Source: Pectobacterium peruviense
GTDB taxonomy: Bacteria > Pseudomonadota > Gammaproteobacteria > Enterobacterales > Enterobacteriaceae
Assembly (NCBI RefSeq): GCF_002847345.1
Contig: NZ_LXFV01000011.1
Coordinates: 186,001 to 250,000 of the forward strand
Reading direction: 5' to 3'
DNA length: 64,000 nucleotides
In this document: one piece after another, positions 7,375 through 15,748 of the stretch
Layout: each line of letters starts with the position of its first letter
Position numbering within the stretch: position 1 is the stretch's first letter
Program-made: the position numbers and the translations under genes
Notes under the pieces: generated by a model
Database searches by the model: none
What the model saw: the letters and a program-made list of their open reading frames with translations, nothing else
Told to the model about the DNA's origin: nothing

Positions 7375-7469
7375 GCGGCTTTACACCTTATTTCAGCCGC
7401 TTTTCGTATCAATAACAAAGACGGTGATACTGGAAAAAATGGCAGAGTCTGAAGAAAGATTTTAATTTT

Positions 7470-7820
7470 ACCAATAATCACCGGATTTTGCTTGCCTACT
7501 CCCCGTTGAAATCCTCTTCTTTGCTTCATTCGGCCATTCATGTGCCTCTGAACGAGTCATCCCGTCAACACCATATCGATAAATGGTGCTGGTTTCTTGT
7601 CTACCGTGGATCGAGTCGTTGTAGCGAAACGAGATCTCTTTGGGGCGTTTATTTAACGCTTCAGTGATCAGACGTTCACCTTTCGGCCAGTACTGCGAGC
7701 GCGTTTGCCAATGTGGATGATGCCAGCCCTACAGCTCTGGAAACGGCCGCCAGCGTCATCTCTTTTTCCTTAATCCCGCGATAATATCCGCCGGGTGCCA
7801 GTCAGTGTGATCTATTCCAT
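7470..7820 (-). pseudogene. Ner/Nlp (SfsB)-type DNA-binding protein, frameshifted
   Basis: Minus-strand translation in shifting frames matches the Ner-like/Nlp winged-helix family: DHTDWHPADIIAGLRKK, then TLAAVSRAVGLASSTLANAL, then WPKGERLITEAL and RPKEISFRYND, followed by a tail SIHGRQETSTIYRYGVDGMT. At least two frameshifts are needed, one before TLAAVS and one at ANAL/SQYWPK. The ATG at 7820 is followed two codons later by TAG. The conserved IWPSRY block is changed to ISFRY. The gene is clearly dead; the intact family includes the Mu Ner repressor and E. coli SfsB. Confidence 0.65.
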
Positions 7821-8435
7821 TTCCCTCCACCTATCAAAAATCATTTTTGATTTCCCGTGTGGATAGGATCATTTTTTGTGATGAGTAAGACCACAGACGA
7901 TGAGTCACATCTTTAACGGATTAGCCTGTGTCTAGCTAAACCGCTGCCGTATTTTAGGCCGGCGCACGAGGATGGGGCAAACGCTTAGGGCATATCAAAT
8001 CACAGTAGCCCCATGTATCTAGGGATGTAAAACAACATGGAAAACTGACGTTAGACTATAACTATTATTCTGGAGATACCCTATATTACTTGAGTACATA
8101 ACGTGACAAAGGACCTACGAATACTCCAGTAATACCCCATCCCCCAAGAGGCAAAAATTCTTTCTAATATTAGAATGGTTTTAATATCTTGAAAATTTCT
8201 AAAACTGTGACATTCTAGGTAAGGTTAATTTGTAAAAAACGTATCTTGTACGCCCAAACTTAAACAACAGATCGGTTCGTCCAAGGAAAGAAGGTTAAGT
8301 CAAATTCAAGAAATGTTGCTTTGCTGACCTAATGCCGAACCAAAACTAAACCTCGTGGTCTCCTGCTGATTGGTTTAAATATTGGGTAAATTTCTGCTAC
8401 AGAGTATGATTACCACTTTGAGAAAAGGACTCGCT
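7821..8435. other. intergenic stretch without a supported gene
   Basis: About 615 bp that turn AT-rich toward the membrane-protein gene. No open frame of note and no recognised repeat. It presumably contains the promoter of the membrane protein-TIR unit. Confidence 0.4.
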
Positions 8436-8918
8436 ATGCATGACACGACGTCTGGATATAAAAAAAGCTGTGCTGATGAACTAGATTTTTCATCTATCAA
8501 TCAATATCATGAATCGACAATGCAAATTAGCAATCAGTGTTTCGAATATAAAAAATTATGTGTTGGCGCTCTTGGCATAATTATAGCAGCAATGTTGAAA
8601 ATTGGACCAGAAACAAGTCTGGTACAACTTTCTCTGACCTGCCTTTTTATTACCATCGGATTTTGGATGTGTGATACTACAGCATATTATTATCAAAGAG
8701 TGAATCGGCAAAAAATCCATGATATTCAAAAGAAAATTTCAAATAGAAATTCTGGGCAGAATGAAGTAGCAACTCAGCTTAAAAATTCTTGGGCTGTAGC
8801 TATTTTTAACAAATCAATGATACTTTACATATACTGCACAGCAGTATTTATATTTACTTTTTCAATCTCCATAATTATTTTTTTATTAAAAAACTGCATT
8901 AACAGTTACTCAGCATGA
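8436..8918 (+). CDS. three-helix membrane protein paired with a TIR protein
   Basis: 160 residues from the ATG at 8436, chosen over an upstream ATG at 8382 because AAAAGGA lies at ribosome-site distance. There are three hydrophobic segments at about residues 41-57, 62-86 and 127-151, with a charged linker (QRVNRQKIHDIQKKISNRN) between the second and third. No family is recognised with certainty; the layout recalls small SLATT-like membrane effectors. Its last codons overlap the TIR gene by four bases (ATGA), implying translational coupling. The gene is markedly AT-rich compared with the flanking core genes, which suggests transfer. Confidence 0.65.
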   Translation: MHDTTSGYKKSCADELDFSSINQYHESTMQISNQCFEYKKLCVGALGIIIAAMLKIGPETSLVQLSLTCLFITIGFWMCDTTAYYYQRVNRQKIHDIQKKISNRNSGQNEVATQLKNSWAVAIFNKSMILYIYCTAVFIFTFSISIIIFLLKNCINSYSA

Positions 8919-9268
8919 AAATATTCATTAGCTACACAACTAGAGATAATGTAATAACAAACGATTTTCTTGTTGAATTAGAATCAAAAATATCAGATCT
9001 AGGATATTTATATATTGATCTTTTGCATAATAACTCTGAGGATAAACAAGCAAGGGTTGAAAATGAACTTCAACAAGCAGATATTTTCCTCCTACTGAAT
9101 ACAGCCTCTACTGGCATTTCACCATGGGTGAAATGGGAGATAGAAACGGCAAAGTCGAATAACATCTACAATATAAAAATCAACATCCCCACTTCAAACA
9201 AAAACATCATCTTCAATGAAATTCGTTTAGCCATTACAAATGCAATTAATCGGAAAAGTAAGCTGTAA
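8915..9268 (+). CDS. TIR-like domain protein
   Basis: 117 residues, a stand-alone TIR-like domain. It opens with MKIFISYTTRDN (strand A plus the F-I-S-Y...D box), has IDLLHN and ADIFLLLNTAS core strands, and ends the active region with SPWVKWEIETAKS. The W-V-x-x-E pattern (Trp71, Val72, Glu75) fits the conserved helix that carries the catalytic glutamate in TIR NADases. In bacteria such domains cleave NAD+ or make cyclic ADP-ribose signals in anti-phage systems (Thoeris and others). Enzyme activity is not proven here. It overlaps the membrane-protein gene by 4 bp. Confidence 0.7.
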   Translation: MKIFISYTTRDNVITNDFLVELESKISDLGYLYIDLLHNNSEDKQARVENELQQADIFLLLNTASTGISPWVKWEIETAKSNNIYNIKINIPTSNKNIIFNEIRLAITNAINRKSKL

Positions 9269-9330
9269 AAATAAATTGGGTTCCCAGGAAAACCCCATAA
9301 TTTAAAAACCTGTAATATTAATAATATATT

Positions 9331-9353
9331 ACTCACCAATGTGAGTATAATTT
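9331..9353 (+). terminator. probable terminator of the membrane protein-TIR unit
   Basis: ACTCAC (9331-9336), loop CAAT, GTGAGT (9341-9346), then ATAATTTTCTT. A short stem with a modest T-rich tail 60 bp after the TIR stop codon. Confidence 0.4.
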
Positions 9354-9357
9354 TCTT

Positions 9358-9393
9358 ATAAAAAAGCACCAGCAGCAACAAAGCATGCTGGTG
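9358..9393 (-). terminator. guaA terminator
   Basis: On the minus strand CACCAGCA (9393-9386) pairs with TGCTGGTG (9374-9367), followed by CTTTTTTATA. It lies 30 bp past the guaA stop codon. Confidence 0.75.
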
Positions 9394-9422
9394 TTTTCAC
9401 TGGTACAAAAATTAGAAAGAAC

Positions 9423-11000
9423 TTATTCCCACTCAATCGTTGCCGGTGGCTTGCCCGATACGTCATAAACAACGCGGGAGATGCCGTCGACTTCGTTGAT
9501 GATGCGGTTGGATACACGGCCGAGGAAATCGTATGGCAGATGTGCCCAGTGCGCGGTCATAAAGTCGATGGTTTCTACCGCGCGCAGCGCGACGACCCAA
9601 TCGTATTTACGGCCATCACCCATCACGCCTACAGAGCGAACTGGCAGGAAGACGGTGAATGCCTGGCTAACCTTGTTGTACAGGTCAGCTTTGTGCAGTT
9701 CTTCGATAAAGATTGCATCTGCACGACGCAGCAGGTCACAGTATTCTTTCTTCACTTCACCCAGTACGCGGACGCCCAAACCTGGGCCAGGGAACGGATG
9801 GCGGTACAGCATGTTGTACGGCAGACCCAATTCCAGACCGATCTTGCGCACTTCGTCTTTGAACAGCTCTTTCAGCGGCTCAACCAGACCCAGCTTCATC
9901 TCTTTCGGCAGGCCACCCACGTTGTGGTGTGACTTGATTACGTGTGCTTTGCCAGTAGCAGACGCCGCAGATTCGATCACGTCCGGGTAGATGGTGCCTT
10001 GCGCCAGCCATTTCACTTCGGCTTGCTTGTTAGCTTCTTCATCGAACACTTCAACAAACACGCGGCCAATGATTTTACGCTTGGCTTCTGGCTCATCTTC
10101 ACCAGCCAGCTCGTTCAGGAAGCGATCTTCAGCCGCCACATGAACAATGTTCAGACCAAAATTATCGCCGAACATTTCCAGAACCTGATCGGCTTCGTTC
10201 AGGCGAAGCAGGCCGTTGTCGACAAACACGCAGGTCAGGCGGTCACCAATCGCACGGTGCAGCAGCATCGCGGTAACGGAAGAATCCACACCGCCAGACA
10301 GACCTAGAATCACGTGGTCGTTACCCACCTGCTCGCGAATACGGTTCACCGCATCGTCGATAATCTTGGCTGGCGTCCACAAAGCTTCACACTGGCAAAT
10401 ATCAAGGACAAAACGCTCTAACATGCGCTGACCTTGACGCGTGTGCGTCACTTCCGGGTGGAACTGTACGCCGTAAAAACGTTTTTCTTCGTTAGCCATG
10501 ATAGCGAACGGACAGGTATCCGTGCTGGCAACGGTCTCAAACCCTTCAGGGATCGCCGTTACTTTGTCGCCGTGGCTCATCCAGACATCCAGCAGCGGTG
10601 CGCCCGTGGCGCTCAACGCATCCTGAATATCACGCACCAGCGCGCTATTAGTTTTTACTTCGACCTGCGCATAACCAAACTCGCGCTCATTGGAACCTTC
10701 AACGTGGCCACCCAACTGCATCGCCATCGTTTGCATGCCGTAGCACACGCCTAATACCGGTACACCAGCGTTGAAAACGTATTCTGGCGCGCGCGGGCTG
10801 CCAAATTCGGTGGTGCTTTCCGGGCCACCGGACAAGATGATCCCGTTCGGATTAAACCCGCGAATCTGCGCTTCCGTGACATCCCATGCCCACAGTTCAC
10901 AGTAAACGCCCAGTTCACGCACGCGACGTGCGACCAGTTGCGTATACTGCGAGCCGAAATCCAGAATAAGAATGCGGTGTTGATGAATGTTTTCAGTCAT
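9423..11000 (-). CDS. guaA: GMP synthase (glutamine-hydrolysing)
   Basis: 525 residues from the ATG at 11000, the E. coli length; the longer frame upstream adds 22 non-conserved residues and was rejected. The N-terminal class I glutaminase has [15 protein letters not shown], the nucleophile elbow LGVCYGMQ and FHPEVTH. The ATP-pyrophosphatase domain starts with the P-loop [11 protein letters not shown]. The C-terminal dimerisation domain ends in KPPATIEWE. It converts XMP to GMP with ATP and glutamine. It follows guaB in the guaBA operon, 107 bp apart. Confidence 0.98.
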
Positions 11001-11032
11001 GAGGAGCGTGTTCCAAAAAGCTAAAAAATAAG

Positions 11033-11080
11033 TAAACCCGGCGAATAGCCCTAAAAAGGTAGGCAATAGTACCGGGTTTA
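11033..11080. other. hairpin in the guaB-guaA spacer
   Basis: TAAACCCGG (11033-11041) pairs with CCGGGTTTA (11072-11080) over a 30-base loop. No T tract follows, so it is more likely an mRNA stability or processing element than a terminator. Confidence 0.4.
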
Positions 11081-11107
11081 TCGGGTTAAATCAGCCCGCA
11101 AATTACC

Positions 11108-12574
11108 TTATGAACCCATACGGTAGTTTGGTGACTCTTTAGTAATGGTAACGTCGTGAACGTGGCTTTCCTGAATGCCAGCGCCGCTGATGCGCACAAA
11201 CTCAGCCTGCGTACGCAGCGCGTCGATAGTGGCACAACCGGTCAGCCCCATACAGGAGCGCAAGCCGCCCATCTGCTGGTGAACGATCTCTTTCAGGCGA
11301 CCTTTATAGGCTACGCGACCTTCGATACCTTCCGGCACCAATTTGTCAGCAGCGTTATCGGTCTGGAAGTAACGGTCTGATGAGCCTTTGGACATCGCGC
11401 CCAGTGAACCCATACCGCGATAAGATTTGAATGAACGACCCTGATACAGTTCGATTTCACCCGGTGATTCTTCCGTACCTGCCAGCATAGAACCGACCAT
11501 GACACAGGCTGCGCCTGCTGCGATGGCTTTAGCGATGTCGCCGGAGAAGCGGATACCGCCGTCGGCGATGACCGGAATGCCCGTGCCTTCCAGCGCTTCA
11601 ACTGCATCGGAGATCGCAGTAATCTGCGGTACGCCCACGCCAGTAACGATACGGGTCGTACAGATAGAGCCAGGGCCGATACCGACTTTCACCGCGCTAA
11701 CGCCTGCTTCAACCAGTGCTTTCGCCCCTGAGCCCGTCGCAACGTTGCCGCCGATGATTTCGAGGTTCGGGTATTTAGCGCGTGTTTCACGAATACGCTG
11801 CAATACGCCTTCGGAATGACCGTGTGAGGAGTCGATCAGCAGTACGTCAACGCCTGCGGCAACCAGCGCATCAACACGCTCTTCGTTACCTGCGCCAGCA
11901 CCAACTGCCGCGCCTACACGCAAACGACCGTGTTCGTCTTTACAGGCGTTCGGTTTACGTTCTGCTTTCTGGAAATCTTTTACGGTGATCATGCCGATCA
12001 GGTGGAATTGATCGTCAATCACCAGCGCTTTTTCAACGCGTTTTTCGTGCATTTTTTGCAGCACGACATCACGCGCTTCGCCTTCTTTAACGGTGACCAG
12101 ACGCTCTTTCGGCGTCATGAACGCGCTAACCGGTTTTTCCAGATCGGTAACAAAACGCACGTCACGACCGGTAATGATACCGACCAGTTCGTTGTCTTTT
12201 GCTACAACCGGGTAACCCGCAAAGCCGTTACGCTCGGTCAGTTCTTTCATTTCACGCAGCGTCGTTTCTGGCGTGACTGTTTGTGGATCAACCACAACGC
12301 CGCTTTCATGTTTTTTCACGCGGCTAACTTCTTCAGCCTGACGTTCAATCGACATGTTTTTGTGAATAAAGCCCAAACCGCCTTCCTGCGCCAGCGCAAT
12401 AGCGAGGCCGGATTCGGTAACGGTATCCATTGCTGCGGACAGCATAGGAATATTCAGGCGAATGTTTTTCGTCAACTGCGTAGACAGATCGGCAGTATTA
12501 GGCAGAACAGTAGAATGAGCAGGAATCAGGAGGACGTCGTCAAACGTCAGTGCTTCTTTAGCGATACGTAGCAT
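11108..12574 (-). CDS. guaB: IMP dehydrogenase
   Basis: 488 residues from the ATG at 12574 ([20 protein letters not shown]), matching E. coli; the 18-residue upstream extension is not conserved. A TIM barrel carries the active loop [18 protein letters not shown] with the catalytic Cys. Two CBS domains (about residues 90-205; [27 protein letters not shown]) are inserted for nucleotide regulation. It oxidises IMP to XMP with NAD+, the committed step to GMP. It is first in guaBA, with a PurR-like site upstream. Confidence 0.98.
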
Positions 12575-14363: not shown

Positions 14364-15407
14364 ATGAAGTCCAGACCGATTTGTAGTGTGATCCCCCCTT
14401 ATATTCTGCATCGTATTATCGCAAACGGTACCGACGAGCAGCGCCACTGCGCGCAACAAACGCTGATGCACGTTCAATCATTAATGGTCAGCCACAATCC
14501 GCGCCCTGAACCTCATGAGAAATTGCCCGCTGGGCAGGCAAATCGTCACATACACGATGCCGAACAGCAGCAACTGTTGCCTGGCAAGCTAGTACGTGGT
14601 GAAGGTCAATTGAGCAATGGTGATGTCGCCGTAGATGAGGCCTATGACTATCTAGGCGTAACCTATGACTTCTTCTGGAAGGTTTTCCAACGTAACTCGC
14701 TGGACGCTGAAGGTCTGACGCTAGCTGGCACAGTACATTACGGCCAGGATTACCAGAATGCCTTCTGGAACGGACAGCAGATGGTGTTTGGGGACGGCGA
14801 CGGGAAAATATTCAATCGCTTCACGATTGCGCTTGATGTGGTTGCGCATGAACTCGCTCACGGCATCACCGAACATGAAGCAGGGCTGATTTATTTCCGT
14901 CAGTCCGGTGCACTCAATGAATCGCTGTCCGACGTCTTTGGTTCCATGGTCAAACAGTATCATTTAGGGCAAACCGCTGAGCAGGCCGACTGGTTTATCG
15001 GTGCTGAGCTTCTGGCAGAGGGTATCCATGGCATGGGGCTACGCTCTATGTCTCATCCAGGCACAGCGTATGATGATGAGCTGTTGGGTATCGATCCCCA
15101 ACCCTCCCACATGAATGAATATGTGAACACGCGTGAAGACAACGGCGGCGTACATTTGAATTCAGGTATTCCCAACCGAGCGTTCTATCTGACAGCCATC
15201 GCGCTAGGCGGTCATTCCTGGGAAAAAGCGGGCCGAATCTGGTACGACACGCTGTGTGACAAAACGCTACCACAAAATGCGGATTTCGAGATTTTCGCAC
15301 GCCACACGATTCAACATGCAACCCAACGCTTTAACCACACCGTTGCTGACATCGTCCAGCAATCGTGGGAAACCGTGGGCGTGGAGGTACGGCAGGAGTT
15401 CTTATGA
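14364..15407 (+). CDS. protealysin-type M4 metalloprotease
   Basis: 347 residues, a thermolysin-family zinc protease of the short protealysin type. The zinc site is HELAH (His162, Glu163, His166) with the third ligand in GALNESLSDVFG (Glu186); an active-site His lies in the C-terminal half. The N-terminal about 50 residues resemble the short protealysin propeptide (CSVIPPYILHRI), not the long thermolysin propeptide. No signal peptide is visible, as in Serratia protealysin, which has been linked to bacterial entry into host cells. The stop codon overlaps the ATG of the inhibitor gene. Confidence 0.92.
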   Translation: MKSRPICSVIPPYILHRIIANGTDEQRHCAQQTLMHVQSLMVSHNPRPEPHEKLPAGQANRHIHDAEQQQLLPGKLVRGEGQLSNGDVAVDEAYDYLGVTYDFFWKVFQRNSLDAEGLTLAGTVHYGQDYQNAFWNGQQMVFGDGDGKIFNRFTIALDVVAHELAHGITEHEAGLIYFRQSGALNESLSDVFGSMVKQYHLGQTAEQADWFIGAELLAEGIHGMGLRSMSHPGTAYDDELLGIDPQPSHMNEYVNTREDNGGVHLNSGIPNRAFYLTAIALGGHSWEKAGRIWYDTLCDKTLPQNADFEIFARHTIQHATQRFNHTVADIVQQSWETVGVEVRQEFL

Positions 15408-15748
15408 AAACGCTACCGGATCTCAACGACGACGCCACTATTGAACTGGCGCGTGAAGGAGGTTTTGCCTGGATCCCTAAACTGGCGGGGACGCGACACT
15501 TCGCGCTCGCCAGCGTCCCTTCATCCGAACGGGCGCGTATTTGTAATGCGATCCGTGATGCTTTCCCTCAGGCTCGCGAACCCGGCGAACCTGACGGTCC
15601 AGGCCGTGGCGACCAATTTTATTACCGTATCAGTATTCGCTACAGTCACCCGCAGCAGAATCAGTATGCCGATATTATCTTGCTGATCCCTGAAGACAGC
15701 GCGCCGCCGGAGTTGGCTGATTTGTGGCGCAATGGCCTACCGCAGTAA
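15404..15748 (+). CDS. emfourin, protealysin inhibitor
   Basis: 114 residues from the ATG at 15404, overlapping the protease stop (ATGA), the usual protealysin-inhibitor arrangement. The sequence has the emfourin pattern: N-terminal IELAREGGFAWIPKL, a central Pro/Gly-rich GEPDGPGRGDQFYYRI and C-terminal APPELADLWRNG. Emfourins bind and block protealysin-like M4 proteases and are thought to protect the producer. Coupled translation would keep the inhibitor level tied to the protease. Confidence 0.88.
   Translation: MKTLPDLNDDATIELAREGGFAWIPKLAGTRHFALASVPSSERARICNAIRDAFPQAREPGEPDGPGRGDQFYYRISIRYSHPQQNQYADIILLIPEDSAPPELADLWRNGLPQ

Follow-up and report, generated by a model that had tools for sequence, protein, structure and literature searches.

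In Pectobacterium peruviense, two small overlapping genes, one for a membrane protein (here M) and one for a stand-alone TIR protein, lie between a rio1-like kinase gene and guaA (gene names read by eye from the translations). Do they form a functional unit, and is that unit a phage defence system? The DNA analysed, referred to below as the window, is a stretch of 64,000 nt. It is of enterobacterial chromosomal type, carrying rio1-like kinase, guaA, guaB, xseA, der, hisS, ispG and rlmN genes (by eye). Further along, at 14364–15748, an M4 metalloprotease-like gene is followed by a short ORF, which by eye we take to be perhaps a protealysin-type pair.

The gene pair and its locus

The M gene (8436..8918, plus strand) is an intact open reading frame of 160 aa. 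The TIR gene (8915..9268, plus strand), also intact, encodes 117 aa, and the stop codon of the one and the start codon of the other share the sequence ATGA (8915..8918, plus strand), a 4 nt overlap. A ribosome-binding-like AAGGA can be read at 8425..8429 (plus strand), 6 nt 5′ of the M start codon; this motif and the alignment of relatives favour the ATG at 8436 as the start, making the upstream TTG at 8382 less likely. Downstream of the pair, a pattern scan gave a terminator-like hairpin at 9330..9347 (plus strand) and a second at 9373–9390 (strand not given). Across 7950–9430, both strands, six hairpin patterns were found against 0.7 expected, an excess that is not evidence of function. As had been noted at first pass, the overlapping genes are far more AT-rich than the core genes, with a GC content of about 32% (31.7% for M, 31.6% for the TIR gene); the window as a whole has 51.0%, guaA 53.8% and guaB 53.0%.

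The first-pass annotation had placed the pair in a gap of decayed accessory genes. In part this is confirmed. A remnant at approximately 7632–7956 has matching DNA near guaA in 15 of the 24 further genomes compared from the genus; the stretch containing the pair (7957..9422, no strand assigned) was matched in none of them (blastn, E up to 0.001, against stretches of about 6.5 kb near guaA, and likewise with shorter ones). Hence the window's lineage probably gained the pair at a site that varies. The TIR protein was found in one of 98 related genomes (E up to 0.001), namely the window's own, so that the other 24 members of the genus all gave no match.

The rio1–guaA interval itself (7375–9422) varies within the genus, with HigB/HigA-like or TetR-like ORFs in some genomes (by eye). 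In six of the 24 genomes the 6.5 kb fetched next to guaA included rio1, at gaps of 318–1949 bases; in the other 18 it was not found there. Two of the six carry both HigB/HigA-like ORFs and one an HTH ORF only (by eye).

The TIR and membrane proteins

The predicted structure of the TIR protein has a TIR fold, as the first-pass annotation had proposed. Its match to the Pfam family ThsB_TIR (PF08937) scores 25.5 bits, over the cut-off of 21.2, while that to TIR_2 (25.8 bits) falls just below the cut-off of 28. The PADLOC ThsB model also matches it (2.7e-8), making it a ThsB-type TIR in the sense of Thoeris. Glu75, proposed earlier as the catalytic residue, lies within W71-x-x-x-E75, and both W71 and E75 are invariant in all ten aligned TIR proteins, in keeping with that assignment. 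The WxxxE motif and the likeness to ThsB together support a predicted NAD-using enzyme.

The membrane protein had been read as having three helices, and both further analyses agree: hydropathy shows three peaks (residues 41–59, 61–79 and 132–150), and the AlphaFold2 model has three long helices (pLDDT 81, pTM 0.63, from an alignment of three sequences). The predicted layout is an N-terminal helix (about residues 4–40), TM1 (about 41–59), TM2 (about 61–83), a charged loop (about 87–124) and TM3 (about 126–156), with the cytosolic side assigned by inference. No Pfam family matched M over its cut-off; weak matches to Holin_2-3 (0.014) and SieB (1.7) were both below cut-off. In the same Pfam scan, no match to SIR2, SLOG or macro domains was seen at E up to 10, and the DUF4231 profile, by which SLATT membership was judged, did not match. 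With no recognisable ligand-binding domain in Pfam, and no convincing match in the PDB by fold or by sequence, M has no visible receptor for a small signal.

Conservation within M is concentrated in the N-terminal helix, where Q23, E26, T28, I31, S32, C35, F36, E37, K39 and K40 are invariant in seven proteins. Across 14 proteins of the M family, K39, F76 and D80 are invariant and R91 nearly so. The M alignments left out the interrupted proteins of loci L019 and L099; in some, the M proteins of L051, L096 and L108 were begun at inner codons. Rows for L057, L060 and L061 (broken or partial) were dropped from alignments A4 and A16, and those for L059 and L109 also from A16.

Conservation of the pair in other genomes

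If the two genes form a unit, relatives of M would be expected to keep their partner; the first-pass annotation had named a missing TIR fold or a lack of conserved pairing as refuting its reading, and neither was seen. Close relatives, 35–46% identical to the M of the window, occur in Enterovibrio sp. ZSDZ42 (L002), Vibrio ezurae (L003), genome G236 (L005), two copies in genome G755 (L017, L019), and three IMG/VR viral contigs (L096, L097, L099). Counting the window, a TIR gene lies directly downstream of M in all nine of these loci, and the retention of the same partner in the same place at such identities suggests more than chance association. The spacing between M and TIR in the seven intact pairs is −4, −4, −4, −1, −1, +5 and +1 nt. 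In the remaining two M is interrupted: a Mutator-family transposase gene cuts that of the second G755 copy, and that of L099 has a frame break. In that second copy (L022, 9680–11844) the TIR frame is open, and the TIR DNA is identical in both G755 copies. Distances among the M and among the TIR proteins agree over the seven intact pairs (Mantel r 0.75, equalled or exceeded in 4 of 5040 permutations; L019 and L099 excluded), a result that shared descent of the pair alone would also give.

When genome contigs were searched, the TIR query returned no confirmed relative and the M query two (L002, L003). At E up to 0.01, M matched in 9 of 295 genomes of the order, of which only the window's genome and G236 were clear. 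A second sample of the order gave 4 of 394 (the window's genome, G236, G755 and G068), the class 3 of 369 (the window's genome, G567 and one match with four stops), and the family of G236 one of 12; these genome samples overlap. Plasmids (blastn, tblastn) and phage records (tblastn) contained nothing that matched the window pair or those relatives' proteins that were tried, and E. coli genomes (blastn, DNA only) nothing that matched the pair. Scans of IMG/VR contigs gave either no confirmed relative or only the three viral loci above.

Integron cassettes and prophage accessory loci

The G755 contig with both copies carries an integron integrase over its family cut-off (506 bits), and a 17-kb stretch of it (L021) has many repeats of about 120 bases with the form of attC sites. 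An attC model was built from 19 of these repeats, so the sites in L021 match by construction. Two of them (8484–8580 and 9440–9564) flank the first pair (TIR 8496–8915, M 8915–9376), and on the evidence of these bordering sites the pair alone is one integron cassette. The second copy likewise lies between attC sites (L022, 9668–9764 and 11926–12052). In the Enterovibrio and V. ezurae loci the model found a site at the TIR end (L002, 8771–8892, E 9.7e-21; L003, 8762–8872, E 1.6e-11), bringing to three the genomes with attC at the pair, in one of which (G755) both copies are flanked. In G236 (L025) matches at 10179–10303 and 12015–12138 are near the pair (10565–11400) without abutting it. No attC match was found in the 64-kb window (E up to 0.1), and the window copy is therefore not recognisable as a flanked cassette.

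Seven genomes were searched for an integron integrase. It was found over cut-off in four, namely G755, G068, G567 and the Enterovibrio genome (G805, on another contig), and not in the window's genome (G000), G236 or the V. ezurae genome (G806). In two loci the TIR frames enter the attC site (L021 8484–8580; L002 8771–8797), meaning that the last residues of the TIR protein come from the cassette end. In L002, a gene for a DUF4062 protein (2.2e-30) comes next (9115–10128). A review treats integrons as reservoirs of defence cassettes (PMC12409362).

The three viral copies occupy accessory loci among structural and replication genes. In L096, a baseplate spike gene and tail gene S enclose the pair and, beside it, a Septu pair (PtuA 1.3e-141, PtuB 1e-85). 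In L099, a PARIS-like AriA ATPase (3.5e-29) and an AriB DUF4435 protein (4.6e-14) precede the pair by about 0.9 kb, and tail-tip gene J is about 1 kb away. In L097, the pair adjoins a HEPN protein just over its cut-off, and lies between replication gene A (PF05840) and the portal gene (PF04860). This interval is the P2 gpA–gpQ hotspot, which Rousset et al. (PMC9122126) describe as a defence hotspot of P2-like phages. A known defence system is thus close to two of the three viral pairs, and the remaining one occupies a known hotspot. Taken with the attC sites, the Septu and PARIS-like neighbours and the P2 hotspot bear out the expected association with mobile elements and defence loci.

A wider membrane protein family and comparison with known systems

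Two distant relatives of M strongly match the PADLOC model PDC-M50A (7.5e-50 and 5.6e-36), and a profile comparison joins the close and distant M proteins (E 8.3e-9). With more sequences, hhalign aligned M to PDC-M50A at E 8.9e-8 and 94.4% probability. The direct PADLOC matches, taken as bare E values, are weak (window 0.0064, L003 1.3e-5, L005 3.4e-6, L002 2.4e-6, L096 0.0012); the L017 protein matched a CARF model better (0.00018) than PDC-M50A (0.00063), and nothing matched in L097 at E up to 0.01 or in the window's own genome at E up to 1e-6. From its profile, M appears to be a distant relative of PDC-M50A.

The PDC-M50A model, with a limit of E 1e-6, matched 10 of 274 genomes of the class and 4 of 299 of the phylum, and none of 14 controls in either scan; with L018 these make 15 distinct loci. 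A ThsB-type TIR lies beside it in nine of the 15 (L018, L051, L053, L054, L056, L106, L107, L108 and L109), with an M–TIR gap of about 0.25 kb in L106 and M itself split in L109. L052 has a sub-threshold TIR match only (0.0054). In five (L055, L057, L058, L059, L060), no TIR was found in the fetched DNA; some of these loci are interrupted, incomplete or close to the end of a contig. Repeats also flank the L018 pair (genome G068; L024), and its contig carries an integrase over cut-off (447.6 bits). Two loci (L107, 275–1908; L108, 447–1938) have one PDC-M50A gene beside two unlike ThsB-type TIR genes, resembling Thoeris loci with several ThsB. In L055 (548–1746), the stretch without a TIR has XisH (PF08814, 6.9e-56) and a possible XisI (by eye) beside PDC-M50A, perhaps another kind of partner.

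Since M is related to a family so often found beside ThsB-type TIRs, the candidate system is, on this profile evidence, already catalogued (PADLOC-DB 2.0.0, PDC-M50A plus PDC-M50B), and the window pair is a divergent, compact variant of it. PDC is short for phage defence candidate (PMC12548924). PDC-M50 resembles the window pair in joining a small, related membrane protein to a ThsB-like TIR. It differs in that the window TIR does not match the PDC-M50B model PDLC04688 (E up to 10; the G755 TIR scores 0.00024), in the length of the TIRs (107–151 aa in the close clade, 138–269 aa in the partners of PDC-M50A), and in gene order, which is M then TIR in nine of nine close-clade loci whereas the wider family has both. 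A literature search found nothing on PDC-M50 or the M–TIR pair; most subscription papers lay outside it, so absence is unproven.

The AC1 three-gene system, which we take to be the one named 2TM-1TM-TIR, is the second precedent. Encoded by the P2-like phage AC1, this TIR and transmembrane system protects E. coli against lambda, LF82_P8 and P2, according to PMC9122126. By its description there, it combines a TIR with membrane proteins at the gpA–gpQ hotspot, the same interval as the L097 pair, but has three genes and more than one membrane protein compared to the single membrane gene of the window. The earlier statement that no named system has exactly this pair was therefore half right: PDC-M50 is a distant relation through M, and the AC1 system is protective.

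Thoeris is similar in its ThsB-type TIR and two-gene form, and in the two TIRs per partner seen in some distant M relatives. It is unlike the window pair in the partner, which here has 160 aa and three membrane helices and matches no SIR2, SLOG or macro domain. A DUF4231 (SLATT) protein beside a TIR is similar in pairing a small membrane protein with a TIR, but shows no relation to M by profile (hhalign 0.7%, from only two SLATT sequences). Parallel pairings of DUF4231 membrane genes beside TIR-like genes were seen in L111 (1034–1902) and L112 (1393–3006).

Function and alternative explanations

Because the pair recurs as a mobile unit, in integrons and in viral contigs near anti-phage genes, it is probably a small phage-defence system, still a candidate one, and our confidence in phage defence of some form is high. 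The initial reading of a defence or signalling module is upheld in part, by the TIR fold, the placed glutamate, the two-gene pairing and the mobile, defence-associated context, and is to be corrected as to named systems.

How the pair would act, and which of the two proteins would sense, signal or kill, is more conjectural. The best explanation, about which we are evenly divided, is a mobile Thoeris-like anti-phage module with M as membrane effector. Upon infection, the TIR protein would become active as an NAD-consuming enzyme and make an NAD-derived signal; M, the three-helix effector, would assemble and perturb the inner membrane, and the damaged cell would stop yielding phage. NADase activity, the signal, the effector role of M and abortive infection are all steps that we infer. 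For an effector driven by a TIR-made product there is an analogous precedent: according to PMC12847820, type II ThsA has a TM and a macro domain (type IV has a caspase-like protease), and His-ADPR makes the TM-macro ThsA perturb membranes. The two unlike TIRs that accompany a single M in L107 and L108 favour M as a shared effector. Against this explanation are the lack of a ligand domain or PDB match in M, the five of 15 PDC-M50A loci without a TIR and one with a sub-threshold match, the weak direct PDC-M50A scores, and the absence of attC at the window copy.

A doubtful but serious alternative is that M is a membrane sensor or anchor that clusters the TIR protein, which would itself kill by depleting NAD, the two acting as a complex with no diffusible signal. 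The overlapping or nearly overlapping genes and the correlated M and TIR distances fit a complex, as do the strong conservation of the N-terminal helix and the lack of a ligand-binding domain, the last favouring direct contact between M and TIR. The single M with two unlike TIRs, and the several ThsB subfamilies found as partners, are less easily squared with a tight, dedicated complex than with a shared effector.

It is improbable that the pair is a toxin–antitoxin cassette stabilising integrons, with the TIR an NAD-consuming toxin restrained at the membrane by M, and phage defence absent or incidental. Toxin–antitoxin cassettes are common in integrons, and both the small, overlapping two-gene form and the integron location would suit one; the placing of the three viral copies in accessory loci, with known defence systems close to two of these copies, does not. 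The broken M beside an open TIR in L099 and the second G755 copy argues weakly against M as antitoxin, weakly because an intact M is present elsewhere in G755 and the L099 pair may not be expressed.

Very unlikely is a superinfection-exclusion or holin-like M with the TIR as an unrelated neighbour, since the Holin_2-3 and SieB matches that suggest it are both below cut-off and every close relative found has a TIR partner. Scarcely credible, finally, is a true Thoeris system with a lost or distant ThsA and an incidental M: the TIR does match ThsB models and ThsA was sought at the locus only, but M is conserved beside the TIR in nine of nine loci, and there is no ThsA (SIR2, SLOG or macro) in the operon, where M has no such match (E up to 10) and the next genes are rio1- and guaA-like (by eye).

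Returning to M as effector, a more specific form can be put forward tentatively. The pair may be a Thoeris-type system pared down to a minimum: a TIR of some 110–150 aa would switch on a bare three-helix effector without a ligand domain, either through an NAD-derived signal read by the helices (with the conserved K39, F76, D80 and R91) or by the TIR acting on M directly. The unit would move among chromosomes, integron cassettes and both P2-like and lambda-like prophages, and the PDC-M50A family would be a new class of TIR-controlled membrane effectors. The loci found show a single module that travels by integron cassettes as well as by prophage accessory loci. If true, this would be a very small TIR immune system, with an uncharacterised membrane family tied to TIR signalling, and its size of about 0.9 kb would allow direct tests of how a TIR controls a receptor-less membrane protein.
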